Assembly: GCA_900320225.1 (NCBI GenBank)
Contig: ONRL01000022.1
Location: forward strand, 1 to 44,973
Length of the DNA: 44,973 nt
Direction: 5' to 3'
DNA from: an uncultured Lentisphaerota bacterium
Lineage (GTDB): Bacteria > Verrucomicrobiota > Kiritimatiellia > RFP12 > UBA1067
Part shown: piece by piece, positions 1,814-16,320 of the stretch
Numbering within the stretch: the first letter of the stretch is position 1
Layout of the letters: every line of letters begins with the position of its first letter
The notes under the pieces: generated by a model
What the model saw: only the letters and a program-made list of their open reading frames with translations
Told to the model about the DNA's origin: nothing
Database searches by the model: none
Position numbers and translations under genes: made by a program

Positions 1814-3499
1814 ATGGTTCGCAAAATCTTCATATCAAGTGTTCAGCGAGAGCTTTCTGCTGAGAGGGAGGCTATTGTGGATCTAGTATCCGACAATCCT
1901 CAGCTAGCGCGTTTCTTCTCCACGTTTGCCTTCGAGTTTGACGTGCCTGCGTCCGACAAGCGGACAGACGAGGTGTACCTTGCCGAGCTTGCCGTCAGCG
2001 ACTTGTATGTGGGCATAATCGGCAACGATTATGGTGGACTCACCTCCGATGGCGTATCGGCCACGGAAAGTGAATATGACGAAGCAACACGGCTCGGCAT
2101 TCCACGCTTCATCTTCGTCAAGGGGTCGTCGGACAAGATGCGCGATCCACGCGAACGGAATTTCCTGCGTAAGGTCTCTCCAGGGTTGATTCGCGTTCGA
2201 TTCGAGAACACGGAGGAACTGCTTGCGGCGTTGACCGAAAGTCTTGACCGTTATCTGGCCGAGAACAAGGTTGTGTATGCGGGACTCACATACGAAGAGG
2301 AGCCTGTCGGGAAATGGGAAGAACTTGACGAGGACAAGATTCGCTGGTTTGTCCGCACGGCCCGAGAGAAGCGCGGTTTCCCGTTCCCTGTGGATGCGCC
2401 GGTTGAAAAGGTGCTGAAACATCTTAAAATGGTGACGGACGGTGTGCCAAACCGTGCGGCGATGCTGTGCTTCGGCAAGGATGCGCATCTTTACGCGACA
2501 TCGCCAGGCGTGAAGTGCATCCTTTGGTATGGCAAGGAACGTCGCAAGCCGGCGGGGTCATACAAATGGTTTGAGGGCAACCTTTTTGAAGTCTCCGACA
2601 AGACGATTGAATTCATCAAGGAGAAGCTCGATCTTCGCATCGGCGGGCATACACTTGGCGCACAATCTGACGACACCTTCGAGATTGACGAAAAGGTTGT
2701 CGCGGAGATGGTCAACAACGGGATCGCGCATCGCGACTACACGTCTTCGGCGACCGTGCAGGTGGAACTGTTTCGTGATCGCCTTACTGTGTTCAGTCCG
2801 GGGCCGATGCACAGGGACATGAGATTCGAGATGCTTGCCGAAGACCATCAGTCCTACGCGACCAATCCGATCATAGCCCATGCGCTCTTCTACGTGAAGT
2901 ACATCGAAGAGATAGGGTCCGGCACTGTAGACATGTTTGACCTCTGCAAGGCGACAGGGCTACGTCCACCGACATTCGACATTGATGCTCGGCATTTCAC
3001 TGTTACGGTCTATCGTCCCGAATTCGACGAACACGGCAACCGCATTCCCGCGACTGGAGAAGAAGTCGGGGTGAAAACCGCAGAAGTCGGTGTAAAAACG
3101 ACGGAAGCCAGTCCAAAACCCCAGGAAGTCGGTCCATATCCAGAACAAATCGGTCAAAAAGCCATAACAAAAACAAAGGAACCCATAACAAATATCGCTG
3201 AACCCATAACAAAAACTCAAGAACCCATAACAATATGCTGGTGCCCCGAGAATGAAAATGCGCTGTCGGGATCACGGAAAGATTTGCGTGAACGCGCTAA
3301 GGTTATATGGGAACACTTGGTCAAGAATCCAGATTTGACTGTTCGTGAATTATCGCTGATGTTAAAATATAGTCTTGCAGCAACGCAGGGGGCCATTAAC
3401 GCGCTAAAGGAATGTGGCCTCCTTGTCAAGATTGGACAGACGAAAGGTAGCAAGTGGATTGTGAAGACCCTGGCAAGTGATACAGAGGTGATCGGATGA
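1814..3499 (+). CDS. DUF4062 / RecG-like ATP-binding / HTH protein
   Basis: This 561-aa protein has four parts. Residues 1 to about 110 match DUF4062 (start RKIFISSVQRELSAER, then SDLYVGIIGNDYGG and ATESEYDEA). Residues about 150-290 look like an AlbA/Schlafen-type region. Residues about 290-400 are a HATPase_c_4-like ATP-binding segment (EMVNNGIAHRDYTSSATVQV, then EIGSGTVDMFD). Residues about 417-474 are a 7-residue tandem repeat, and about 490-552 form a winged-helix-like domain (LTVRELSLMLKYSLAATQGA). DUF4062 is found in several defence-associated architectures; proteins with this ATPase-repeat-HTH layout are usually called transcriptional regulators. Function is not known. It opens the accessory block and overlaps the next small ORF by ATGA, so it heads a short operon. 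A role in sensing infection is inference. Confidence 0.75.
   Translation: MVRKIFISSVQRELSAEREAIVDLVSDNPQLARFFSTFAFEFDVPASDKRTDEVYLAELAVSDLYVGIIGNDYGGLTSDGVSATESEYDEATRLGIPRFIFVKGSSDKMRDPRERNFLRKVSPGLIRVRFENTEELLAALTESLDRYLAENKVVYAGLTYEEEPVGKWEELDEDKIRWFVRTAREKRGFPFPVDAPVEKVLKHLKMVTDGVPNRAAMLCFGKDAHLYATSPGVKCILWYGKERRKPAGSYKWFEGNLFEVSDKTIEFIKEKLDLRIGGHTLGAQSDDTFEIDEKVVAEMVNNGIAHRDYTSSATVQVELFRDRLTVFSPGPMHRDMRFEMLAEDHQSYATNPIIAHALFYVKYIEEIGSGTVDMFDLCKATGLRPPTFDIDARHFTVTVYRPEFDEHGNRIPATGEEVGVKTAEVGVKTTEASPKPQEVGPYPEQIGQKAITKTKEPITNIAEPITKTQEPITICWCPENENALSGSRKDLRERAKVIWEHLVKNPDLTVRELSLMLKYSLAATQGAINALKECGLLVKIGQTKGSKWIVKTLASDTEVIG
3062..3235 (+). repeat. 21-bp in-frame tandem repeat (7-aa unit)
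   Basis: About eight degenerate copies of a 21-bp unit lie inside the DUF4062 gene. GAAGTCGG or a variant recurs at 3062, 3083, 3104, 3125 and 3146, then CCATAACA recurs at 3162, 3183, 3204 and 3225, each exactly 21 bases apart. The encoded units read EVGVKTA, EVGVKTT, EASPKPQ, EVGPYPE, QIGQKAI, TKTKEPI, TNIAEPI, TKTQEPI. The repeat forms the linker between the ATP-binding region and the HTH domain. Confidence 0.85.
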
Positions 3500-3582
3500 A
3501 ATCGGCCAATCGCACCATCCTCGTCGCGGGCATGGGCACCTCCCCGGCGGTGCTGATGGAATTTGAAGAGGAACTTGCATGA
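3496..3582 (+). pseudogene. 28-codon remnant resembling the start of a CRISPR-associated CARF/ring-nuclease protein
   Basis: This small ORF starts in the ATGA overlap with the DUF4062 gene (ATG 3496) and ends in an ATGA overlap with the nuclease gene (TGA 3580-3582). It has a good ribosome site, AGAGG at 3484-3488, 7 bases ahead. Its first 20 residues contain RTILVAGMGTSPAVL, very like the opening beta strand and glycine loop of Cas_NE0113/Csm6-type CARF proteins, which typically read 'ILV..GTSPAVLTET'. Immediately after that point the sequence switches to MEFEEELA and stops. The simplest reading is the head of a lost CRISPR accessory gene fused to the 5' flank of the next gene. The family match is from memory of the motif only. 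Confidence 0.45.
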
Positions 3583-4760
3583 AGAAGGAAACGCGAAAGA
3601 AGAGCTCGGCTCTTGTGAAGAGCGGCGGAGAGGCGCAATCCTACACTGCGTGGATTGCCGACCTCAAGCGCAGATACCGTGCAACGCAGATCAAGGCGGC
3701 TGTTGCCGTCAATTCTGCGTTGATCGAGTTCTACTGGAATCTCGGTAAGGACATAACGGAGAAGTTCGCAGAAGAAGCCGGATACGGGTCTCGCTTTTTC
3801 GAGAAGGTTAGCTTCGACATGCGAACGGAATTTCCGAATGATACGGGTTTCTCGCCACGGAACATCAGGTATTGTCAGGACTTTTACTGTTTGTATTCCT
3901 CCATGCAGATTTTGCAACAAGTTGTTGCAAAATCCGCCAAGGGTAAGCGAGCGGCATCAAAAATGCCACAAGTTGCGGCAAAATATGTCCGCTCGCAACT
4001 AGTTGACGATAAGATTTTGCAACAACTTGTTGCACAATTGTTTTCTGTTCCTTGGGGCCACCATTGTGTCATCATCGACAAGTGCAAGAGGAATCGCGAC
4101 AAGGCGCTCTTCTATGTGCGGCGAACGATTCAGAACGGGTGGAGCCGGAACTCGCTTTTGAACTGGCTTTCAACCGACCTCTACGAGCGCGAGGGCAAGG
4201 CGCAGACGAACTTTGACCTGACGATGCCGTCCGACGACTGCGACCTTGCGCGGCAGCTCGTGAAGGATCCGCAGAAATTCGAGGTCTTCGGATTGAGCGA
4301 GGAGTATTCGGAGAAGGAACTCAAGGCCGCCATCGTCGCGAACATCGAGTCCACGCTCCTTTCATTCGGCAAGGGCGTCGCGTTTCTTGGGAAAGAGTAC
4401 CCTGTTGAAGTTGGCGGCGAGACAAAAAACATCGATCTTCTTTTCTACATCGTGCCGTTGCATCGCTATCTCGTCGTGGAGGTCAAGACCGGCAAGTACG
4501 AACCTGCCGATCTCGGACAGCTGAGCGGCTACATGGCGATTGCGAAGCATGTCTTGAACACGCCGGTCGACAACCAGCCTGTCGGGCTTCTCATCTGCAG
4601 GGAACACAATCGCGTCCTCGCCAAGTACCATTTGGAGGAACTTGGCCTGCCGATGGGCATCTCCGACTACGAACTCAAGAAGGTCCTCCCCACCAAGGCG
4701 CAATTGGCTAAGTGTGTCACCGACGCAGAGCGGCAAATCGCCGCAACGAAAGGCGTGTAA
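3579..4760 (+). CDS. YhcG-type PD-(D/E)XK nuclease (DUF1016)
   Basis: This 393-aa protein has the two-part layout of the YhcG/DUF1016 family. The N-terminal DUF1016_N helical region (about 20-220) includes NSALIEFYWNLGKDI, VPWGHHCVIIDK and ENGW-like QNGWSRNSLLNW. The C-terminal PD-(D/E)XK domain (about 230-385) has active-site residues Asp286 (NIDLLFY), Glu301 and Lys303 (VVEVKTGKY), then the conserved GQLSGYM and GLLICREHN. Proteins of this family occur in restriction-modification and other defence islands; the substrate is not settled. Between residues about 110 and 150 it carries a partial internal duplication (ILQQVVAK / ILQQLVAQ) encoded by near-palindromic DNA. GAGG 7 bases upstream supports the ATG at 3579. 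Composition is intermediate between the GC-rich chromosome and the AT-rich operon that follows. Confidence 0.88.
   Translation: MKKETRKKSSALVKSGGEAQSYTAWIADLKRRYRATQIKAAVAVNSALIEFYWNLGKDITEKFAEEAGYGSRFFEKVSFDMRTEFPNDTGFSPRNIRYCQDFYCLYSSMQILQQVVAKSAKGKRAASKMPQVAAKYVRSQLVDDKILQQLVAQLFSVPWGHHCVIIDKCKRNRDKALFYVRRTIQNGWSRNSLLNWLSTDLYEREGKAQTNFDLTMPSDDCDLARQLVKDPQKFEVFGLSEEYSEKELKAAIVANIESTLLSFGKGVAFLGKEYPVEVGGETKNIDLLFYIVPLHRYLVVEVKTGKYEPADLGQLSGYMAIAKHVLNTPVDNQPVGLLICREHNRVLAKYHLEELGLPMGISDYELKKVLPTKAQLAKCVTDAERQIAATKGV
3909..4038. repeat. Paired near-palindromes inside the yhcG-like gene
   Basis: Bases 3909-3933 are two perfect 12-base arms, ATTTTGCAACAA and its reverse complement, around a single G. 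Bases 4014-4038 repeat the left arm exactly with a slightly imperfect right arm around a C. A weaker relative (CACAAGTTGCGGCAAAAT) lies between them. They encode the duplicated ILQQ(V/L)VA(K/Q) motif. Confidence 0.6.
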
Positions 4761-4805: not shown

Positions 4806-5606
4806 ATGACATCTTGGTGCAAAGAAGAAAACAAAATTTCAGACGGTAGGAAAGTACAGGCTCAGATGCCTGTCATTGTCTCGGCCAGCCGATTGACGGA
4901 CAATTCTCATAGCGAATATGTGGCTCACCCTGACGGTGTTGATGGAGGTGTTGGAGGCGCTTGCATAACAAAAGAATTTGATGTAAGGAAGATGCTAATG
5001 GCTAATTTCCAAGAGGGAAAATACATTAATGTGCTTTTGTCTGCATTGAAAGAATTTTATGCTAAGGATGCCGAATCATTGTTTAAGTATAAGATGGTCG
5101 ATGAGCGAGCAATGGTCGGATGCATATATCGATATATGTGGTGTAGAATGGTCCGGAAAAATATGGACTGCGAAATCGATATTGAATATGACCGGATGCG
5201 AGGGTCAGAGGGAGAAGCCTGTCGCAAATGTATAGGAGGAATGCCTAGGAATTGTGATACGAAGGGTTGTAAGTTAAATTGCGGGAATATTTTGTTTGAG
5301 TGGAAAGATCGTAAAGAGGATTATGAGTATAACTTTAGACCTGATATGATTATTCATCATAGAAATAAAAATGCAGAGGGTGATAATGTTTTGGTTGTCG
5401 AAGTGAAGAAGGAAGGCGCATCTGATGAACTATGTAAATTTGACAAGGCTAAGGTCAGTTGGTGCACCTGCTCAAATGGATGTTTGCAGTATAGAATTGG
5501 AGCATTTGTGGTCTTACATGCCAAATATGCAACTGTTGAATGGCGTTGTCTTGATGGCGATTGGATGCAGCCGTTGAAAGTTGATGAGAATGGAATTAGG
5601 GGGTAG
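4806..5606 (+). CDS. Cys-rich PD-(D/E)XK-like protein, unknown family
   Basis: I do not recognise this 266-aa protein as a named family. Its C-terminal third has the layout of a PD-(D/E)XK nuclease core: RPDMIIHHR with Asp180, then LVVEVKK with Glu199 and Lys201, then a downstream KAKVSW helix and a beta strand (RIGAFVVLHAKY). Cysteines cluster on both sides of the core: C139, C142, C150, C155 and C159 before it, and C210, C220, C222 and C226 after it. This could bind zinc or an iron-sulfur cluster. There is no signal peptide, so it is probably cytoplasmic. The ATG at 4806 has only a weak AGGA 12 bases upstream, so the start is uncertain. The next gene begins 15 bases after the stop, which places it first in the radical-SAM operon. 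Confidence 0.6.
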   Translation: MTSWCKEENKISDGRKVQAQMPVIVSASRLTDNSHSEYVAHPDGVDGGVGGACITKEFDVRKMLMANFQEGKYINVLLSALKEFYAKDAESLFKYKMVDERAMVGCIYRYMWCRMVRKNMDCEIDIEYDRMRGSEGEACRKCIGGMPRNCDTKGCKLNCGNILFEWKDRKEDYEYNFRPDMIIHHRNKNAEGDNVLVVEVKKEGASDELCKFDKAKVSWCTCSNGCLQYRIGAFVVLHAKYATVEWRCLDGDWMQPLKVDENGIRG

Positions 5607-5621
5607 TTGTTGGAGCGTATA

Positions 5622-6857
5622 ATGACCGATGCCGATAAGAATTGCACACTGGCGAGGGAGTCTGATGAGCATAACTCAGCTCTTTCTGCATTTGCGCCTT
5701 CCAAAGCGTCTCATAAGAGACGGCGTAGTTGTACTTTGATGATAACGCGCCGGTGTAATCTTAATTGTAGTTATTGTTATGAGTCACATAAGTGTAATGA
5801 CACCTCTTTTGATATGACATTTGATACTGCTAAACGGATATTACTTTCCGAATTCACTTTTGTTCAAGCGAGTCCAGATTTTGACGAGATTGAGATTGAT
5901 TTTATGGGGGGTGAACCATTCTTGAATTTTGCCCTTATTAAGCAAGTTGTCGAGTGGTTGGATGTGTGTCCGCCTCCTATCCCATATATATGTTTTGCTA
6001 CAACAAATGGTACGCTTATTGCAGAGCATAAGGATTGGCTTTTTAAGCATCGTAAGCATTTTGTCCTTGGGGGAAGTTTTGATGGTACGGATGAGATGCA
6101 AACTGTAAATCGCGGGAGCTGGAAAGATCTGTCTGCTAACATGAAACTTTTACTCGAGATGTACCCAGAACAAGGGATACACATGACTGTTTCAAAAGCG
6201 ACATTACCAAATCTATCTGTTGGAATAATATCTTTGCAACGGAAAGGTTTTCATGTTGAGGTAGCGCTTGCACAGGGTGTAGAATGGAACTCCGCTGATG
6301 TGGAAGCGTATGAATGTCAACTAGAAGATTTAGCAATGGCATATTTAACTACCGATAGGAACCTAAAACCTGTAAATTTGTTGTCACGCTATCTTGGTGG
6401 AATTGATGGATCACCAGAGTTGACGCGCCAGAAAAAGTATTGTGGTTCTGGGACGCACATGGTCGCATACGATTATGACGGGAAGGCTTATGGATGCCAT
6501 TTGTTTACACCGATCGTTCTAGGATGTATGGCAAAAGTAAGTGAGGACATTCCGTTTCTTTGTCCTGATGTGGTTGAAGATGAATTCTGTTTTCAGTGTG
6601 TCTTAAAGTCGATTTGCCCGACATGTGCAGGATTTAATTATCGGTATCGCGGAAGTATTGGTACTCGTGATCATCGGTGGTGTAAGCTTATGCTGGCACA
6701 GTATAAAATGGCTTCAATATTTCAACAAAAGTATGTTGCGGCAATGGAACACCCAGCCATTGAGGATGTTCGCTATTTGCGTGCTGCGGTAACAGCTTAT
6801 GAAGTGATTTCGGCCTCAGTTTGGGATGAGGCACCCTTTAGACGTGTCATGAAATAA
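5622..6857 (+). CDS. Radical SAM/SPASM peptide maturase
   Basis: This 411-aa enzyme carries the radical SAM cluster motif C45-x3-C49-x2-C52 (RRCNLNCSYCYE), the MGGEPF motif for SAM binding, and TTNGT. The C-terminal part has SPASM-like cysteines: YCGSGTHMVAYDYDGKAYGC, then C323, C326, C332 and C335 (FCFQC...CPTC), and a final WCK. SPASM radical SAM enzymes typically modify ribosomal peptides using auxiliary Fe-S clusters. The next gene, 8 bases downstream, encodes a peptide with 19 cysteines, so that peptide is the obvious substrate. I chose ATG 5622 because GGAG lies 6 bases before it; an in-frame TTG at 5607 would add five residues. Codon use is AT-rich, like its operon partners. Confidence 0.88.
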   Translation: MTDADKNCTLARESDEHNSALSAFAPSKASHKRRRSCTLMITRRCNLNCSYCYESHKCNDTSFDMTFDTAKRILLSEFTFVQASPDFDEIEIDFMGGEPFLNFALIKQVVEWLDVCPPPIPYICFATTNGTLIAEHKDWLFKHRKHFVLGGSFDGTDEMQTVNRGSWKDLSANMKLLLEMYPEQGIHMTVSKATLPNLSVGIISLQRKGFHVEVALAQGVEWNSADVEAYECQLEDLAMAYLTTDRNLKPVNLLSRYLGGIDGSPELTRQKKYCGSGTHMVAYDYDGKAYGCHLFTPIVLGCMAKVSEDIPFLCPDVVEDEFCFQCVLKSICPTCAGFNYRYRGSIGTRDHRWCKLMLAQYKMASIFQQKYVAAMEHPAIEDVRYLRAAVTAYEVISASVWDEAPFRRVMK

Positions 6858-6865
6858 GGAGTTGT

Positions 6866-7276
6866 ATGGAAATTTCACAGGAAGAAAAGAAGCGAATTAA
6901 GCAACTGCTATCTGCACGGCCAATTGACAAATGTGCGGTTAAACCTGCATCTGATGTTGCGGTCGGGTGTGAGTTTTGTACTGGACATTGTGTTGGATCA
7001 TGTGAGTCGTCTTGTGCTGATTTACAAGAAGCACTCCCTCGCCCCGTGAGTAAAGAAGAAGACACTGGATATGATTCCTACTGTGAAGAGTGCGGAGGTA
7101 ATTGTTATAGTAGTTGTTCACAAGGATGTGGAGGAGAATGTTCTGGGGCATGTCGGAATTCGTGTTATTTTCGTTGTGGGGCAACGTGTGAATTTTGCTG
7201 TGAGGGACAATGTGGGGTGACGGTATCGAGTGAGCCAAATGGCGCTGTGAGAAAGCGGGTATATGATGAAGACTGA
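6866..7276 (+). CDS. CXXX-repeat cysteine-rich peptide, probable RiPP precursor
   Basis: This 136-aa protein has 19 cysteines. A charged, nearly Cys-free leader (residues 1-34) is followed by block 1 (C35, 38, 42, 46, 50), a 22-residue spacer, then block 2 (C73, 76, 80, 84, 88, 92, 96, 100, 104, 108, 111, 112, 116). Eleven cysteines of block 2 keep an exact four-residue register. Both blocks contain CEFC. The tail ends VRKRVYDED. The adjacent radical SAM/SPASM gene makes a thioether- or otherwise-modified RiPP the leading idea; CXXX-repeat targets of radical SAM enzymes have been described in Bacteroidetes. A metallothionein-like metal-binding protein is the main alternative. AAGGAG at 6856-6861 precedes the ATG by 4 bases, and the gene overlaps the next one by 14 bases. 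Confidence 0.75.
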   Translation: MEISQEEKKRIKQLLSARPIDKCAVKPASDVAVGCEFCTGHCVGSCESSCADLQEALPRPVSKEEDTGYDSYCEECGGNCYSSCSQGCGGECSGACRNSCYFRCGATCEFCCEGQCGVTVSSEPNGAVRKRVYDED

Positions 7277-9386
7277 CTGTCATATTGAATCTATTCTCCA
7301 TTCAAGTTTACTCCGTCTGGCCGAGGCGGGGATAGCAGAAGCCCAATATCGCCAGGGTAAACAATATCAAACGGGCGACGGCGTTGCACATGATATGGCT
7401 TTAGCGTTTGCGTGGTTTCTTAAATCGGCGAATAATGATCATCCTAAAGCACAACTCGAGGTTGGCCTGTGTCTGGAAAAAGGAGTTGGAGTGGCGTCAG
7501 ATCTTATCCGCGCGGCAATATATTACGAGAAGGCGTCTGGTCATGGCATTACGGAGGCATCATGGCGTCTAGGGGATATGTTTCTCGAGGGACGAGGGGT
7601 ACATCTTGATTATTCAAAAGCACGTGAGTTATACGAAACTGCATGTAAGTCAAAAGAGCAACATGCGGAGAACGATTATGATGGGGATAACATTTGTCCT
7701 GAAGCGGAGTGGTCTCTTGGTGTAATGAAGGAAGATGGAATCGGGTGCGATAAAGATATTGAAGGGGCTAAGATTCATTATGCACGAGCGTCAGGATTAG
7801 AGAAGGTAAAAGAGCGTAATCTTGTAGAATTGGAGCTTCGTTATGCAAGGTTAATTGATAAAGGTCCTAAAGACTTTAATTCATATAGACGTGCGGCGGA
7901 GGTGGGATCCCTGGAAGCGATGCGAGAGTATGTAGAGCGAAGTTATTCTCATAACACATGGCATAGTCGAGATGATGAAGATTATGATCCATTTTCTCAA
8001 TCGTTGTTTGAACATTGCCTAGACGAGTTAATAGACAATAAAGATTCATGGGCAATTCTGCTCGCATGTAAAAAAACGATCTTACCAGGGTATAACGAGC
8101 TCCAATATAAATTGGACGGAAAAGATTGCCTCCACTTTTTACACTCTTTCATCTTAAGCGGAGATCAAGTTGCATGTCAGCTATTGGCTAGGGCTTATGT
8201 AAATGGCGTCATTGTAGATAAAAGCGTTATCAATGAAATTAGGTGCTATAGGTTGGCTAGAAAGTGCCAACGTCATCCAAGCAGAGCATTACTTTCCAAT
8301 AGCCAATTTAAAAAATTGTTGTCGGGAATCCTGGCTAGAGTTTCTAAGGATGAGGGTGATGGTTACTACGATATGTGGAAGTTGTTGACGAATCCCGAGT
8401 ATGTTGTTACGCCGAGAGAATTTGCATTGCCTTGGTTGATGAAGGCGGTAGAAAGAGGCAACAAAGATGCTGTACTAGACAAGCTAAATGAAGATCGTAG
8501 GATTGCGAGGGCAAGATTTGAACCAAGAATTTTGGGCCTTGAGAAATCCAATCCGCGATCAGATTATGCGATTTATAGTCGTGAAAATGAGCCTGATTCG
8601 CGGTGCAGTTGGGATTCGATTTTACGGGATATTCTCAAAAGTGCCGAACTTGGTGATCATGATGCAGAGCTGTGGGCGGCACGGATACTCGCAGATGGAA
8701 GACTGGGTGATCATACTTCTGGGAACCCGAAACCAGTTAAGAAGGATGTTGCATCTGCGGTCATGTGGTATGAAAAGGTTTCTCATGCAATTGAGTTATC
8801 TCCTGAGGATAAATGTCGTTATGCGAATTGTTTAGTAGAGAGCAGAAACAGAGATTGGACTTTGATTACACGTCTTTATGCGGAAGCTGCTGGTGCTGGA
8901 CTCCATGAGGCTGAATTTAAATATGCTTCGCGGTTGATTAAAGGAGAAGGGTGTAATGCCGATGCTACAAGGGCAATGAATATTTTGCATTCTATCAACA
9001 GTGTTGAAGCACAAGATGCCTTGGCACACTTGTATATATCGCAACAAGATATATCTCATGCACTGGAGTGTTATGAGAGAATTCTGGATTGTAGTGAGAG
9101 CGTAATTGAGGCTGACAAGCGTCTAGACGCTGAAAGGCATGATTTAGCGAGCCATTATAGAAAACAGTGGGAGCAGATTCGTGCAATGGAATTAGCACAA
9201 TCTGCAGAACGTCGTAGGATCGTAATGAAGACCGCTGTAGATGTTTTGAAATTATATCGAGAAGGAATTGCGGTACTAGCACAAATGCAAAAGGCATGGG
9301 CATGTCTTCAGCATGAGACAGTAGAATTCCCCATCGCGGACAAAGATTCTGACAAGGATTTTGAGTTTGATAATTTGCCATTTTAA
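7263..9386 (+). CDS. Sel1-repeat protein 1 of the radical-SAM operon
   Basis: This is a 707-aa all-helical repeat protein. Residues about 18-180 contain at least four clear Sel1-like repeats of about 36 residues (AEAQYRQGKQYQTGDGV...A, AQLEVGLCLEKGVGV, ASWRLGDMFLEGRGV, AEWSLGVMKEDGIGC). More divergent units follow near residues 460-620 (AELWAARILADGR, AEFKYASRLIKGEGC). The C-terminus is a long helix ending in an acidic tail (KDSDKDFEF). There is no signal peptide. Sel1 repeats are protein-interaction scaffolds. The gene overlaps the Cys-rich peptide gene by 14 bases, so translation is probably coupled. ATGs at 7263 and 7266 are equally possible. AT-rich codon use matches the rest of the operon. 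Confidence 0.85.
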   Translation: MMKTDCHIESILHSSLLRLAEAGIAEAQYRQGKQYQTGDGVAHDMALAFAWFLKSANNDHPKAQLEVGLCLEKGVGVASDLIRAAIYYEKASGHGITEASWRLGDMFLEGRGVHLDYSKARELYETACKSKEQHAENDYDGDNICPEAEWSLGVMKEDGIGCDKDIEGAKIHYARASGLEKVKERNLVELELRYARLIDKGPKDFNSYRRAAEVGSLEAMREYVERSYSHNTWHSRDDEDYDPFSQSLFEHCLDELIDNKDSWAILLACKKTILPGYNELQYKLDGKDCLHFLHSFILSGDQVACQLLARAYVNGVIVDKSVINEIRCYRLARKCQRHPSRALLSNSQFKKLLSGILARVSKDEGDGYYDMWKLLTNPEYVVTPREFALPWLMKAVERGNKDAVLDKLNEDRRIARARFEPRILGLEKSNPRSDYAIYSRENEPDSRCSWDSILRDILKSAELGDHDAELWAARILADGRLGDHTSGNPKPVKKDVASAVMWYEKVSHAIELSPEDKCRYANCLVESRNRDWTLITRLYAEAAGAGLHEAEFKYASRLIKGEGCNADATRAMNILHSINSVEAQDALAHLYISQQDISHALECYERILDCSESVIEADKRLDAERHDLASHYRKQWEQIRAMELAQSAERRRIVMKTAVDVLKLYREGIAVLAQMQKAWACLQHETVEFPIADKDSDKDFEFDNLPF

Positions 9387-9400
9387 TCTTAAAGGAGTAG

Positions 9401-11962
9401 ATGATTTTTATGTCGGAATTCAATCCATCTGTTATGAATGGGAACCTGTCAAGATTAATCCTTGAACAATATGTTGAACAGGGCCAACTTATTGAGTGTC
9501 GAGATCGCTTATATCGGATTTACTGTCAAATGAACGGCCCCGCACCTGATCTTTATGCCCAGCTGCTTGTAGACTCATGTGCCGATATCTCAACTTCGGT
9601 TGCGAACGCAATACTCCCAATAGAAGGCATGCATTTACTACCGTCATTGAGAGAAGTATTTAAAACTCGTCCGACGAAGACACAAATACAGAATTATTTT
9701 CAAGATCAAATGTCTATGGATTTTGGAGATTACTTGTTTGTTTGTGAAAGCATCTCTATGTTAGGGCTACCTTTATATGATCCAGTTGCTTTTGATGAAA
9801 ATGATTGCTTGATTACCATTACTGAATGTTCGGGAGATAGACTTGAACAACATTTTAGGTGTTTGATGGCCGCGGTTCTAAACCGCGAAAACCTCCCAGT
9901 TTCTGCAATCATCCAAGGTAAAAATGATGTCAAGAAAGGAATAGAGAAGATTGGAATGACCTTGAAAAATAGGGAGGTATATTATGTCGAACGTGCCGCT
10001 GCGGAAGGAAATGCACGTGCATTGTATTTGTACGCCAAGATGAAGTTAAAAGCAAATGATAACATCGAATATTCGACGGTGATTCAGTTGTTATCACGAG
10101 CGGCGGCGAAAGGCGAGATACTTGCATATTTTGAGTTAGGATTACTGTATGATTCTTTTGAGTCAGGTTGTCGAGAAGTTGCTAAGGCGGCAGAAATGTA
10201 TGCAAAAGCGTATGAGTGTGGAGATGTTCGCGCGGCAGCTCGAATAGGAGATATGTGTTTTGCTTTCGCGTTCACAGATGGATCTATAGAAGAGTTTAGT
10301 CTAAATGATAGTAATGTAATTGAAGACGCCGTTGGTTTACGAAACTTCATGGAGCAGTTTGCGACTCATGAATGTCAGACGAGTGATCCGGAGATTCGTT
10401 ATCGTAAGGCTGCGTTAAGGTGGTACCGCCTTGGAGCTTCATTAGGAGATGGTTATGGATGGTATCGCCTTGCGGCTTGCCTTGAGGCAGTGTATTTACC
10501 TGGGGATGATTCTTCAGAGATTCTGAACGGTTATCAAAAGGCAGCAGAGTCAGGAGTTGGACAAGCTGCATGCGCATTAGGGCGGATATATGAAATAGGA
10601 CGTGTGACGGGCAGGAATGTCAAGTTGGCAAAGGAATGGTTTAGTATAGGGGCTAGTTTAGGGTCCGCAGAGGCTGCTTATAGACTCGGTGTGATGTTAG
10701 GGTGGAATCACTGCCTCATTTCAGTTGCGGAATCAATGGGGTATCTGTCTGAAGATAATTTTCCAAGGAAGTATGGAAAATTGGAGGAGTTAGCTCAAAA
10801 GGGGAACGTTAAGGCTCAATATGCTGTCGCATGTATTCTGATTCATGGAAAAACTGAGAGCGATGGCTATTATCCTTTGGAAATTGCAGCGGATAAGGAT
10901 GCTGCTTATTTATGGTTCCGTAGGGCGGCTGCACAAGGTTATTTTCGTGCTTATGGAATATTAGGAATCCTTGAAGAGACTAAGGATAAGAAGATGGGGA
11001 GCCCTAGCATGAATCCTTGGTTCAAGAGGGGTGCAAAATATGGATTGGGATATGCATGCTGGAGATTGTACAAGAACCGTTGCGAGCACCTGAAAGAATA
11101 TGCCTTGAAAGCATCAGAATTATACAGTGATTTGTCCCCAATCAATATGTGGACATTAGGCCGCTTGTATGAAAAGGGTTTTATAGTAAGTTCCAACCCT
11201 AAAAAGACGGCATATGAGTTTTATAAAAAGGCCGCAGAAACGAACTTCACATCAGGAATTGTGTCTGTGAGTGAAATGCTCTTGTCCGGTTCAATTTCCG
11301 ATCCATCTGTCAATGTGTATGAAGAGTTGATGGATGCGGCACGGACGGGAGATGTTTGTGCAGTATGTTTGTTGGCCTATTGTATGGAAAGAGGATTGGG
11401 GTGTCAGCAAGATTTGCATGGAGCTGTCCACCTTTATTATTTGGCTTCGATTTTTGGTAATATTAAGGCAATGGTCGGTTATGGACGAACGGCACTTAGT
11501 GTATTCGGGCAGGATGAGTACATTGGAAGTGATAATCATATCGGTAGAACGGTACTAGATGTTAAAGATTATCTCGATGAAATTTCTGACGCGCTTCAAC
11601 TAGATAATCGTTATTTTGCGCATGTGAAACCGACTGACTACCTAACTAAGGCTGTAGACAAAGGAAGTGTCGAGGCGATAGAAATATTGGCGAAGTATTA
11701 TGCTATTCCACGATGGCGAAATCGGGTGGGATATAATGATGCGGAAAGGTTTCCGCACAATTTATATTTTGAGGATAATCTTAAGAAAGCGGTTTCATAT
11801 TTTGAACAAGCAATATCGCATGGTAGAGTAAATCTTGAAAGTGAATTGGCGATGGCACGTAGTCGTCTGAGCCGCTGTATTAAAGGACGATATTTGGAAC
11901 CGATTGCCGATTCTGACCTAGGTGTGGCGGTTCCATGTCTGGATTCAGAACTTTGTTTTTAA
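9401..11962 (+). CDS. Sel1-repeat protein 2 of the radical-SAM operon
   Basis: This 853-aa protein has an N-terminal region of about 195 residues that I do not recognise (EQYVEQGQLIECRDRLYRIY...), then Sel1-like repeats through most of the rest: ARALYLYAKMKLK, AYFELGLLYDS, ACALGRIYEIGRVTG, AQYAVACILIHGK, WTLGRLYEKGF and AVCLLAYCMERGLGC. It has no signal peptide or membrane segment. AAAGGAG at 9391-9397 is 3 bases before ATG 9401 and 12 before ATG 9410, so the true start could be either. It lies 14 bases after the first Sel1 gene. Internal bases 9871-9887 (CGCGGTT-CTA-AACCGCG) form a GC-rich hairpin that stands out in this AT-rich gene. Confidence 0.83.
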   Translation: MIFMSEFNPSVMNGNLSRLILEQYVEQGQLIECRDRLYRIYCQMNGPAPDLYAQLLVDSCADISTSVANAILPIEGMHLLPSLREVFKTRPTKTQIQNYFQDQMSMDFGDYLFVCESISMLGLPLYDPVAFDENDCLITITECSGDRLEQHFRCLMAAVLNRENLPVSAIIQGKNDVKKGIEKIGMTLKNREVYYVERAAAEGNARALYLYAKMKLKANDNIEYSTVIQLLSRAAAKGEILAYFELGLLYDSFESGCREVAKAAEMYAKAYECGDVRAAARIGDMCFAFAFTDGSIEEFSLNDSNVIEDAVGLRNFMEQFATHECQTSDPEIRYRKAALRWYRLGASLGDGYGWYRLAACLEAVYLPGDDSSEILNGYQKAAESGVGQAACALGRIYEIGRVTGRNVKLAKEWFSIGASLGSAEAAYRLGVMLGWNHCLISVAESMGYLSEDNFPRKYGKLEELAQKGNVKAQYAVACILIHGKTESDGYYPLEIAADKDAAYLWFRRAAAQGYFRAYGILGILEETKDKKMGSPSMNPWFKRGAKYGLGYACWRLYKNRCEHLKEYALKASELYSDLSPINMWTLGRLYEKGFIVSSNPKKTAYEFYKKAAETNFTSGIVSVSEMLLSGSISDPSVNVYEELMDAARTGDVCAVCLLAYCMERGLGCQQDLHGAVHLYYLASIFGNIKAMVGYGRTALSVFGQDEYIGSDNHIGRTVLDVKDYLDEISDALQLDNRYFAHVKPTDYLTKAVDKGSVEAIEILAKYYAIPRWRNRVGYNDAERFPHNLYFEDNLKKAVSYFEQAISHGRVNLESELAMARSRLSRCIKGRYLEPIADSDLGVAVPCLDSELCF

Positions 11963-11974
11963 AGTGAGGTTGTT

Positions 11975-14900
11975 ATGAAGGCAGATGTGGTGCTTAAATA
12001 TCATGAAATACTGACGAAGCAAGGGCCGGCCGAAGCCTCATTGTACTTTGCATTGCAATTTGAAGGGAACGAGTGGTATACAGACGAAACTTTTCCAGGT
12101 AAGGCAGATTATTTAACAAGAGTTCGATATGCTGCCGAACAAAAAAGAAGACAACAAGAGGGAATGTTGTTGGCACTGGAGTATTTTGGTCAGGCTCTGG
12201 CTGCTAAAGATGCAGTCACGAAGGCAAGAGCATTGGCTGGGCAATGGCGTACGATGCAGTGGGTTGCGAAACATTTTTTTGACGAAAGGGGGTATTATGC
12301 AAATGACGATAAAGGCCGGCAGATTACGGCAGCAATTAAAGCATCAATTGAATGGCGTATCGTACTACGGGCAATCAATTTCCCAAGACAAGGTTACTGG
12401 CCACGTCGGATGTATGTTGAAGGGACTGACGGCTCAATCATAGATCGTGAATGTTGGCATCTTGAAAAACTTCTATCTAACTGTGATATTCGTTATAAGG
12501 GTTGCCTTGAACGTTTTACTGGAAAACGAATGGTGTTATGGGCTCTTGGCGTAATCTCTGAATTAGGTTTGGATGGGGAATCCGATTTGAATCAAGCAAT
12601 CAGACTTTACGAGCAAGCTTTATCCATGAATTGTGCTGCGGCGAGTTGGCGTCTTGGCGATATTCTTATGTCACTAGGTCGCGAAGATGATGCGCGTAAA
12701 GCATATACTAGAGGGGTTGAATTGGGGCATCCAATAGCCGGATTGAGGGTCGCCGAGTTGTCAAAGAATGGAACTAATGAAACAATAGAATTATTAGTGA
12801 AGGCTGCACGTGCTGGTGTGGGTGATGCTTGGTATGCTTTATGGTTACAACTTTCAACTCTGAAAGACAAGTATGCGATAGGAGAGGATGAACTTGAGGC
12901 GATCTATAAGGTGGCTATTGGCCTTGGATCAAGTAAGGCGATTCGAGAAGAGATACGAAGAAAAGATTCTATCGAAGATCAATGCCTTCGGAGAAGAGAA
13001 GTCGGTACACTCTGGACAAGGTTGGCAAAGAGTTTCGATGCAAAAGATTGTTTTGAGGCGGCGCATTATATCTCCACTCACATGCATGGTGGTGGTTCTT
13101 CTGTTTTACAACAATATCTTCGCGCGGCTAAACTTGGTTCTGCGGAGGCTATGTATGTTCTTGGCCAATGCTATGACCCAACTGTAGGCCCTGCTCATCA
13201 TTCAGGTCGGACATTTGAAAATACTTATAGGGATAAGGATGAGCTTATCGCATTTATGTGGTATGAGAAAGCGGCTAAGTACGGAAGCCCTGACGGGCAA
13301 TATGTACTGGCAAACTATTACAAGGAAGGTCATATCGTGGCTCCAAGTGCTCAGAAGTGTTATGAACTGACGGCTTTGGCCGCACAGTCGTTTCACTTGA
13401 AAGCGCTTTTTGATGTTGCGATGTATCTTAAGAGTGGGTATGGATGTCTAAAAGATGTAATGCTGGCGATTGAATATTTAAAAACAATCATAATGAAAGT
13501 TCAGACTGAGAATTCAGATGGAGGAATAGGGCTTGCAGGGAAGGCGGCGCTAGAAGTTGCTAGGATATATGATGATGATTCTTTTTCGTGTTCGGATATC
13601 AATACGGCAATTGAATATTACCTTCTTGCGGCAAATACTTATGGTAATCCAGAAGCGCATAGGCGACTATCTGAATGTTATGAACTCGGATATGGCGTTT
13701 CAACAGATGTTGACAAGGCATCGGAACATTTGGTGAAGTACATTTGTGGATATGAAGATGATTTTGAGAATAGGATTTCTGCACGTGTTAATCGTCGTAA
13801 GATACATAATTCTGAACCGCTTGTTGACATGCCAGAAGAGATGGCGCGTTGCATAGAGATTGCCTATGCCTATGAAACGGGCATTCGGGGAAATTGGCGT
13901 TATCAAAAACATCACATCAAGCAGATATTAGAACCCAATGCTACAGAGGCATACAAATGGTATTGTCGTGCATTTGAAAAGGGGATGCTGGCAGCTGGTT
14001 TACGGTGCGCGGAAATGCTGGTTGAAGGGATTGGGTGTACGCCGAATCTGGAATCTGCTCGAACGATTTATGCTAAGCTTGCAGAAGCAGGATATTTGGA
14101 AGCTGCTGTTTCCCTCTCACAGATGTACCTCAAAGGGCGATTTGTTCAATCGGATGGAAGGGAAGGCGTGATGTACTGGTTGCAGAAGGCGTCTGAACTT
14201 GGCGATGATCGTTCACGATTTTTGCTTGGAAAGGAAATTGAGGCCCAAAAGGGAGGCATGGATGCCTTGGGGTCTGCAGTTGTCTGGTACAAACGGTCTC
14301 ACAGCGAAGAAGCTTTTCTGCGCATGGCGCGATATTATCGCGAAGGATTAGAGGGAGGGCGGGATATCGGTCTTGCGGCACGATATTATCGAATGTGTGC
14401 GTCTATAACTGCCAGATTGGAATTCTCTGATATGTGTAGGGTGTATGGAGAAAGTAAAAGGAACGCGGGTGATAATGTAACGGCTTTTAAATGGTTTCTG
14501 CGCGCTGCTCGACTGAAGAACCCTTATGGACAATTGCGCCTTGCAGAAATGTATTTTCATGGTGAGGGTGTGCGTGTGTCGCTAGCCAAGGCCGCTCAAT
14601 GGAATTATTGGGCAGCAGAGTGCGGAGATGCTGAAGGTCAGTGGCGAATAGGCGTGTTTTGCGAACTAGGAATCGGCATTGATCAAACATTAGAGTCAGC
14701 GGTTGAATATTATAAGAAAGCAGCGGCACAAAATCATGTTTTAGCGAAACTTCATTTGTTTGAACTTGGATATGTCTCGTTTGAAGAAATTCAATCATTG
14801 GTTGAGGCTGGATGCCCTGAAGCTTGTTATATCCATGCAAGATGTCGGCTTCGTCAAATATTGGAAAATGGTAATGGGGGGCAGGCTGATGGTATTGACA

Positions 14901-15529
14901 CGCTACGACGAGAGCTCGCGATAGCGATAAATGCGGGTATTTCGGATGCCGCTTATGATTTGTATCTATGTAATAGCGGTCCTGATTCTAATTTCGAGGA
15001 ACAGGTAGAAGCATTAAAGGTGGCAGTTGTTAAAGGTTCGCATGAGGCTTTGTTACAATGGTCGAGAGCGCTCGTGAGCGATGGAAAAGTTTCAGAGGCA
15101 ATCCCTAAACTCTGGGAATTATATGCAAATGGTTACAAAGAAGCAGGTGATTTATTATTATCAGCATATAAGCAATATTGTGATAACGCACTAATTGACG
15201 ATATGTCGTGTTATGTTAAACGTATAAATGAACTTTGTTTTGTTAAGGCTCGCTTAGCCGCACTTTCGATGAATCACGATAAAGGCGTCGTTTCTCCATT
15301 GTTGCATAAGTTTGTGACCCCGTTAACGGATTCATCTATTGATATTATATCTGACAAGTTTAGTTTGGAATTCAACTCATATAGGCAAGAACCGATTGTC
15401 CAACATGATGATTATGATGAAGACCCTTCATATCGGGATGATACTCCTGATTGGAAAGAGGAGTCTGGGTGGAATGATCTGTATGGCAGCGACGTAGAAG
15501 CCTCTGATATCATTGAGTTTCGGGATTGA
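11975..15529 (+). CDS. Sel1-repeat protein 3 of the radical-SAM operon (1184 aa)
   Basis: This is the largest of the trio. Sel1-like repeats run from about residue 200 to 950, with well-formed units such as AASWRLGDILMSLGR, AMYVLGQCYDPTVG, GQYVLANYYKEGH, AHRRLSECYELGYGV, AGLRCAEMLVEGIGC, AAVSLSQMYLKGRFV, GQLRLAEMYFHGEGV and GQWRIGVFCELGIGI. The last 50 residues are strongly acidic (DDYDEDPSYRDD). No signal peptide is visible, so it is probably a cytoplasmic scaffold. GTGAGG 5 bases upstream supports the ATG at 11975; the gap to the previous gene is 12 bases. It closes the AT-rich operon. Its composition resembles its two neighbours and not the chromosome on either side. Confidence 0.85.
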   Translation: MKADVVLKYHEILTKQGPAEASLYFALQFEGNEWYTDETFPGKADYLTRVRYAAEQKRRQQEGMLLALEYFGQALAAKDAVTKARALAGQWRTMQWVAKHFFDERGYYANDDKGRQITAAIKASIEWRIVLRAINFPRQGYWPRRMYVEGTDGSIIDRECWHLEKLLSNCDIRYKGCLERFTGKRMVLWALGVISELGLDGESDLNQAIRLYEQALSMNCAAASWRLGDILMSLGREDDARKAYTRGVELGHPIAGLRVAELSKNGTNETIELLVKAARAGVGDAWYALWLQLSTLKDKYAIGEDELEAIYKVAIGLGSSKAIREEIRRKDSIEDQCLRRREVGTLWTRLAKSFDAKDCFEAAHYISTHMHGGGSSVLQQYLRAAKLGSAEAMYVLGQCYDPTVGPAHHSGRTFENTYRDKDELIAFMWYEKAAKYGSPDGQYVLANYYKEGHIVAPSAQKCYELTALAAQSFHLKALFDVAMYLKSGYGCLKDVMLAIEYLKTIIMKVQTENSDGGIGLAGKAALEVARIYDDDSFSCSDINTAIEYYLLAANTYGNPEAHRRLSECYELGYGVSTDVDKASEHLVKYICGYEDDFENRISARVNRRKIHNSEPLVDMPEEMARCIEIAYAYETGIRGNWRYQKHHIKQILEPNATEAYKWYCRAFEKGMLAAGLRCAEMLVEGIGCTPNLESARTIYAKLAEAGYLEAAVSLSQMYLKGRFVQSDGREGVMYWLQKASELGDDRSRFLLGKEIEAQKGGMDALGSAVVWYKRSHSEEAFLRMARYYREGLEGGRDIGLAARYYRMCASITARLEFSDMCRVYGESKRNAGDNVTAFKWFLRAARLKNPYGQLRLAEMYFHGEGVRVSLAKAAQWNYWAAECGDAEGQWRIGVFCELGIGIDQTLESAVEYYKKAAAQNHVLAKLHLFELGYVSFEEIQSLVEAGCPEACYIHARCRLRQILENGNGGQADGIDTLRRELAIAINAGISDAAYDLYLCNSGPDSNFEEQVEALKVAVVKGSHEALLQWSRALVSDGKVSEAIPKLWELYANGYKEAGDLLLSAYKQYCDNALIDDMSCYVKRINELCFVKARLAALSMNHDKGVVSPLLHKFVTPLTDSSIDIISDKFSLEFNSYRQEPIVQHDDYDEDPSYRDDTPDWKEESGWNDLYGSDVEASDIIEFRD

Positions 15530-15547
15530 ATGTTAGTGGAGGTGTCG

Positions 15548-15622
15548 ATGAAGGCCTTGTCGCAGTGCGCGGCGAATAAGATGTTGAAAGAAATAACGGT
15601 ATGGATAAGAACAAGTTATTGA
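15548..15622 (+). CDS. Possible 24-aa micro-ORF at the island edge
   Basis: An ATG at 15548 has a strong ribosome site, GGAGG at 15538-15542, 5 bases upstream. It opens a 24-codon frame starting MKALSQCAANKMLKEI and ending VWIRTSY, which runs 22 bases into the following lipoprotein gene. I see no recognisable family. It may be a real small protein, a translational lead-in to the lipoprotein gene, or the end of a broken gene at the island boundary. Confidence 0.3.
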   Translation: MKALSQCAANKMLKEITVWIRTSY

Positions 15623-16320
15623 TGGTTGTTACCGAGGCGGTGGTATGCTGCGCGGCGCTGGCTGTAGTTGCAGGGTGTCGGCATGTGCCGGACGACTGCA
15701 CGGAATCTGTCGCGCCATTTTCAGGCGACCGTGCGGTATTGCCTGGTTCGCCGTGCGGGGCGGCACCGGCGAAAGCCGAACTCCTCCACGAATCCGGCAC
15801 GCTCGCACTTTTTTCGGGAGAAACGGCGGAGGACACCGCGTTCAATGAGGCAGATGCGACGGAAAGGGATTACCGTAGGCACAATTCGCTTTTCTTGCGG
15901 CGACGCAAGGCGGATGGGACGGACGAATGGCGGCTTCTGTTGACGTCGGGCTCCGATTGGCGGGCGGCTGATGGAATGGATAGATGGGATTCTTCACAAG
16001 CTGGGGAAGTGAGGGGACACTTTAAAATTAGAAAAGCCAGTTTTGGTTTGGACGGGCGCCATTTGTGGCTGGTCTGCGACACGCATACCAGTCTCTACTC
16101 CGTTGTCTGCTCTTATGATGTGCAGGACAATGTTCTCAAGGTCATGATCGACGGAGATACAGCCGCCGAACAGCCGGACGGCACGATTTTGGTAACTGGC
16201 AAGAAGGTTTACCTCCAAGACGAAAACGGAGAGCCTGACGGCGCAGGTTTATGCGACGTGTGGATTACCCCCGACGGCAAGATCGTCCGGAAATCCAAGC
16301 CTGTGAAGATAAATGGCTGA
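15601..16320 (+). CDS. Secreted lipoprotein of unknown function
   Basis: This 239-aa protein begins with a lipoprotein signal peptide: short charged start MDKNK, a hydrophobic core, and a lipobox VVAG-C with Cys26 as the likely lipidation site. The mature part (HNSLFLRRRKADGTDEWRLLLTSG, then DGRHLWLVCDTHTSLYSVVCSYDV and DGTILVTGKKVYLQ) looks like beta-strand repeats. Paired blocks end in aromatic and Asp-Gly turns, and it finishes with CDVWITPDGKIVRKSK. I do not recognise a named family. Composition is closer to the chromosome than to the AT-rich operon before it. The upstream ribosome site is weak (GAAAGAA). Confidence 0.6.
   Translation: MDKNKLLMVVTEAVVCCAALAVVAGCRHVPDDCTESVAPFSGDRAVLPGSPCGAAPAKAELLHESGTLALFSGETAEDTAFNEADATERDYRRHNSLFLRRRKADGTDEWRLLLTSGSDWRAADGMDRWDSSQAGEVRGHFKIRKASFGLDGRHLWLVCDTHTSLYSVVCSYDVQDNVLKVMIDGDTAAEQPDGTILVTGKKVYLQDENGEPDGAGLCDVWITPDGKIVRKSKPVKING

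Follow-up and report, generated by a model that had tools for sequence, protein, structure and literature searches.

The window analyzed here, that is, the whole stretch of 44,973 nucleotides, contains a run of six open reading frames (ORFs) on the forward strand (4806–5606, 5622–6857, 6866–7276, 7263–9386, 9401–11962, and 11975–15529; hereafter designated the cluster) with intergenic gaps of 15, 8, −14, 14, and 12 bases, as had been described in an earlier reading made without database searches (hereafter, the sequence-only reading). The negative value corresponds to an overlap of 14 bases (7263–7276) between the 3′ end of the third gene, encoding a Cys-rich peptide, and the 5′ end of the fourth, encoding the first of three Sel1-repeat proteins. 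The start of the second gene, encoding a radical SAM enzyme, was taken as the ATG at 5622, in line with the 15-base gap (TTG at 5607 is the first codon of the mechanical ORF), and Shine-Dalgarno-like sequences precede the peptide gene (AAGGAG) and the second Sel1 gene (AAAGGAG). The GC content is 0.40–0.46 in all six genes versus 0.67 in a right-hand host gene, and the GC3 values are 0.30–0.39 in the six genes, 0.58–0.69 in the neighbours, and 0.94 in a host gene. This single base composition suggests that the six genes probably arrived together. The sequence-only reading had described AT-rich genes in GC-rich flanks, which holds for the six genes but not for their immediate neighbours, since these are intermediate (0.52–0.53 for the two genes on the left and 0.56 for a lipoprotein-like gene on the right). 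Neither att-like direct repeats at the cluster flanks nor tRNA genes in the window were found, and no integration site was identified. Promoter-like sites in the window were about as frequent as in shuffles, and terminator-like sites were somewhat commoner (14 versus 8.4) and nearly all within genes; these counts settle the transcription of the cluster neither way.

Directly upstream of the cluster (1814–4760) lie genes for a DUF4062 and HATPase_c_4 protein and for a YhcG nuclease (PDC-S02 in PADLOC), a defence-island-like setting with a base composition different from that of the cluster. On the six genes themselves, PADLOC gave only weak partial matches, that of the enzyme being to a viperin-like entry at an E-value of 1e-10. 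A 27-base repeat, AGATTTTGCAACAAGTTGTTGCAAAAT, is present three times at 3907–4038 inside the YhcG nuclease gene, where its copies also form inverted repeats.

The first ORF of the cluster has a composite structure. Its first 32 codons (4806–4901, forward strand) are what remains of the start of a DUF1848 gene and continue in frame into the nuclease-like ORF. They show 74–81% DNA identity to the beginnings of intact copies of this gene in the window genome and its relatives, with the match ending at 4901–4906; an intact copy was confirmed by Pfam DUF1848, and no further DUF1848 pieces were found within the window. A second broken DUF1848 gene, followed by another gene, was observed in a congener (L131; G009:C14), and DUF1848 gene starts may be a recurrent junction. 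The remainder of the ORF (4992–5606, forward strand) encodes a candidate PD-(D/E)XK-like nuclease with the motif PD-x18-ExK and a Cys-rich insert. A relative with 46% identity in a related genome (G139) aligns from residue 69 of the window ORF, so that the true start is probably near 4992–4998, and the motif is kept as PD...VVEVKK or PD...VVEFKK in three relatives. The candidate gave no match in Pfam, NCBIfam, or PDB; VRR_NUC matched the G139 relative at an E-value of 0.0048, below the cut-off, and the AF2 model (pLDDT 45) was too poor for a fold search. Thus, of the PD-(D/E)XK-like effector proposed in the sequence-only reading, the catalytic motif is present, and the label derives from that motif. 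Members of this rare family were found in 4 of the 334 genomes of the class, and no relative was found on plasmids or viral contigs.

The second gene (5622–6857, forward strand) encodes a radical SAM/SPASM peptide maturase, as judged from invariant Cys residues, Pfam and NCBIfam matches, and a structure profile. The CX3CX2C motif (Cys50, Cys54, and Cys57) and the SPASM Cys residues (Cys279, Cys297, Cys328, Cys331, Cys337, Cys340, and Cys359) are all invariant in 12 aligned enzymes, bearing out the earlier assignment. The best NCBIfam match was PapB (NF047865; 118.4 bits versus a cut-off of 340), followed by nif11-like and CXXX-repeat maturases, all below the curated cut-offs. The nearest solved structure by profile was 5WGG (E 2.5e-40; 'Radical SAM domain protein'), which we take to be CteB. 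Scanning genome contigs with the enzyme sequence alone gave no close relative, and a profile scan recovered relatives at 40–49% identity across several phyla; within the order, strong relatives are sporadic, being present in 5 of 162 genomes with its own genome counted. This sporadic occurrence in the order, combined with the spread over phyla, points to horizontal movement. Plasmids yielded a single match (33% identity, Phocaeicola). A phage-borne cluster is not claimed, because the viral contigs were devoid of nuclease relatives and their best-covered enzyme relatives were only about 32% identical.

The third gene (6866–7276, forward strand), following the enzyme gene after the 8-base gap, encodes a putative precursor peptide of 136 residues, recognized by its Cys pattern and a leader match. 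Most of its 19 Cys residues are arranged in two CXXX blocks (Cys 35–50 and Cys 73–116) with 13 CXXXC steps, a pattern reached in 0 of 20,000 shuffles, in accord with the CXXX-repeat peptide of the sequence-only reading. The leader, MEISQEEKKRIKQLL, resembles that of an alphaproteobacterial peptide (L095), MEISEEELKKIQNLL, with a score of 49 (0 of 2,000 shuffles). This is the sole convincing leader likeness, and a profile built from the other leaders missed the window peptide.

In the phylogenetic tree, the window enzyme falls into a 16-member clade (support 99/97) comprising at least five phyla (Kiritimatiellota, Verrucomicrobiota, Bacteroidota, Bacillota, and Pseudomonadota). A Cys-rich peptide adjoins the enzyme in all 16 members, that of G186 being short with 4 Cys residues. 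Moreover, chains of four or more Cys residues were found near 32 of 56 related loci versus 4 of 29 distant radical SAM controls, where a few of the 56 are one contig fetched twice via two collections (e.g., L043/L056, L044/L067, and L015/L064). These results support the earlier proposal in so far as it paired a radical SAM maturase and a ribosomal peptide of the CXXX type, low in GC and horizontally spread. The CXXC and CXXXC pairs could also bind metal, and modification of the peptide is a prediction, so that the peptide might instead be a metal- or cluster-binding protein devoid of cross-links, the radical SAM enzyme having some other task; the strict co-occurrence of peptide and enzyme in the clade and the peptide-maturase type of the enzyme, with its full SPASM domain, make this reading very unlikely.

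The sister clusters (L048, L049, L051–L055, L060, L081, and G388) share with the window an enzyme of the same clade at 40–49% identity and an adjoining CXXX peptide, but in them the peptide gene is followed by genes for a ClpP-like protease and an ABC transporter, and the nuclease and large Sel1 genes are absent from all of them. Within the clade, the protease is nearby in 13 of the 16 members and the transporter in 10, their identities being established by Pfam on the copies of G118, a genome of the same family as the window genome. Neither gene is present at 4806–16320 or elsewhere in the window. The sequence-only reading was therefore correct that transporter and protease are missing here, although the nearest relatives carry both. 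Two other members, G186 and G177, likewise lack both genes. Loss is the best reading of the absence in all three, given that the protease also occurs in Sporomusa, which lies outside the clade. Given this usual cluster of the clade, the peptide could be exported by a transporter and a leader protease acting in trans from elsewhere in the genome, with the nuclease and Sel1 genes as unrelated passengers. We consider this quite unlikely, since the dedicated ClpP-like protein has no close counterpart in the whole genome, where the one ClpP-like match is 28% identical (the assembly is 95% complete and could miss a copy), and since 20 residues follow the last Cys of the peptide, a longer tail than most sister peptides have. 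The cross-phylum family outlined here, a radical SAM enzyme and a CXXX peptide usually accompanied by a ClpP-like protease and an ABC transporter, was not found described in the open-licence literature, and the window cluster represents a natural variant of it lacking the export genes.

Comparison with known systems places the pair near, but outside, several families. PapB forms Cys-Asp/Glu thioethers in CX3D/E motifs (PMC9413430). The window pair resembles the ranthipeptide system PapB/PapA in having a radical SAM/SPASM enzyme with PapB as its best NCBIfam match and a substrate with repeated Cys-centred motifs, but the enzyme score is far under the cut-off, and the window peptide, read directly, has CXXXC steps and no CX3D/E motif. 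Similarly, 5WGG as the nearest solved structure relates the enzyme to the SCIFF maturase family (TIGR03974), whereas its score of 80 bits is well short of the cut-off of 425 and the peptide is not of the six-Cys SCIFF type. The TIGR04115/TIGR04117 CXXX-repeat systems also have a substrate with Cys at every fourth position adjoining a radical SAM enzyme; the cut-offs of these TIGRFAM models, to which the sequence-only reading had pointed, are missed by both the enzyme (94.9 bits versus 350) and the peptide (14.4 versus 50).

The last three genes of the cluster encode Sel1-repeat proteins A (7263–9386; 707 residues), B (9401–11962; 853 residues), and C (11975–15529; 1184 residues, with an acidic C-terminal tail), all on the forward strand. 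Their Pfam Sel1 scores of 94.6, 46.8, and 111.9 bits, respectively, each exceed the cut-off of 30.7, confirming the three large Sel1 proteins reported earlier; the 4, 3, and 5 matched stretches cover each protein in part. No catalytic domain was found in them, where the AF2 model of protein A (pLDDT 39) was too poor for a fold search or to exclude such a domain. Protein C has no match at E ≤ 1e-30 elsewhere in the 162 genomes of the order. Sel1 genes were found beside 0 of the 56 related radical SAM loci and at none of the 29 control loci in a search that recovered the G139 Sel1 protein as a positive control, with the qualification that in several relatives the contig edge is only a few kb away and Sel1 genes there could be missed. 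Searches of the open-licence literature gave no description of Sel1 genes in a radical SAM peptide system. Thus, the enzyme–peptide pair is of a recognizable modified-peptide kind, and the unusual part is the joining of a nuclease-like gene and three Sel1 genes to it.

The G139 locus (L138) shows these latter genes without the pair. There, the nuclease gene is directly followed by a Sel1 gene and then by a relative of the protein encoded at 15601–16320 in the window. The locus has no radical SAM gene and no CXXX peptide gene, and its one Sel1 protein has 5 repeats matched. The 15601–16320 gene (forward strand) encodes a putative lipoprotein, possibly linked to the cluster, that shares 57% identity with the C-terminus of L138:10383-12626. 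Its family is present in 8 of the 162 genomes, has a conserved NSLFLRRRK...GSDWR region (15601–16320; L150–L155), sometimes forms the C-terminal domain of larger proteins, and belongs to no Pfam family. A constant association of this lipoprotein with Sel1 genes was considered and rejected, because nuclease and Sel1 genes are both missing from the surroundings of five other copies.

The sequence-only reading had taken the six genes as one system. The comparisons above do not support one conserved system, since, on the refuting condition which that reading had itself set, the enzyme relatives keep the peptide without Sel1 or nuclease genes and the nuclease–Sel1 pair exists in G139 without enzyme or peptide; the six genes look like a composite rather than a conserved system. 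In one integrated conflict system, Sel1 scaffolds would hold or gate the modified peptide, which would control the nuclease inside the cell. Such a system would fit the tight operon with its 14-base peptide/Sel1 overlap, the single GC3 range, the absence here of export genes present in sister clusters, the YhcG and DUF4062/HATPase genes just upstream, and the defence setting of a distant nuclease relative, which is flanked by genes for Cas_NE0113 and for a sacsin-like ATPase (L165; G126:C50). The full gene set, however, occurs in no other genome examined, and either part is found without the other, the enzyme–peptide pair being free of nuclease and Sel1 genes everywhere else examined; we therefore regard a single integrated system as doubtful. 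The more specific proposal that the radical-SAM-modified CXXX peptide is held in the cell on the Sel1 scaffolds and regulates the nuclease, a ribosomal peptide system thereby diverted from export to a defence-like role inside the cell, is unlikely.

Collectively, the six genes are probably a horizontally acquired operon of two modules. Module 1 (5622–7276) would consist of the radical SAM/SPASM maturase and its substrate peptide, and module 2 (about 4992–5606 and 7263–15529, perhaps with 15601–16320) of the PD-(D/E)XK-like nuclease and the Sel1-repeat scaffold proteins, module 1 sitting between its two parts and the Sel1 genes occupying the position of the protease and transporter genes of the sister clusters. 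Presumably, the pair was inserted between a nuclease gene and Sel1 genes while in a low-GC donor, from which all of them then moved into this genome. This would account for the base composition common to the six genes, the separability of the modules, and the lack of export genes, all observed along with the enzyme–peptide pairing and the likeness of the leader to that of L095. Against this two-module reading, the gene order (nuclease, enzyme, peptide, and three Sel1 genes), tight spacing, and one base composition would fit a single unit equally; the separability of nuclease and Sel1 genes is known from one other genome; the nuclease is a candidate by its motif; the profile of the remaining leaders missed the window peptide; and Sel1 genes could have been missed on the short contigs.

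In the two-module operon, the enzyme would bind the short N-terminal leader of the 136-residue peptide and, through 5′-deoxyadenosyl-radical chemistry, tie the regularly spaced Cys residues to nearby residues, most likely by ranthipeptide-like thioether links, a chemistry favoured by PapB as the best family match and by 5WGG as the nearest solved structure. With the export genes absent and Sel1 genes in their place, the peptide would be without a dedicated exporter and most likely stays in the cell, and the gene overlap combined with the missing export module makes an intracellular, scaffold-bound peptide conceivable. Binding of the modified peptide by the Sel1 proteins and a defence task shared by nuclease and peptide are speculative. 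A product acting within the cell would be a rare example of a modified ribosomal peptide with an intracellular role; otherwise, the locus would clearly exemplify the insertion of a peptide module into another operon.

Genes recognized by eye as transposase-, tyrosine integrase-, and serine recombinase-like adjoin related enzyme–peptide pairs (L043:14378-15988, L057:8880-9476, and L095:2153-2764), in keeping with mobility. In L015:1242-3296 (G009), a CXXX tail, CNGCSGSCHGSCSGSCAGSC, is C-terminal on a 684-residue protein with a HEIGH metal-binding motif, whose gene lies directly upstream of the radical SAM gene, and the substrate may be this tail on a large protein. In L035:8163-11495 (G118), three CXXX peptides are encoded between two radical SAM genes, the second enzyme being very divergent, followed by ABC and ClpP-like genes. 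Two sister enzymes are accompanied by short-core peptides without long CXXX arrays, CIVFGCGMGSD and CASGCGMCGYGSN (L013 near 7450–7620; L069:11186-11314).
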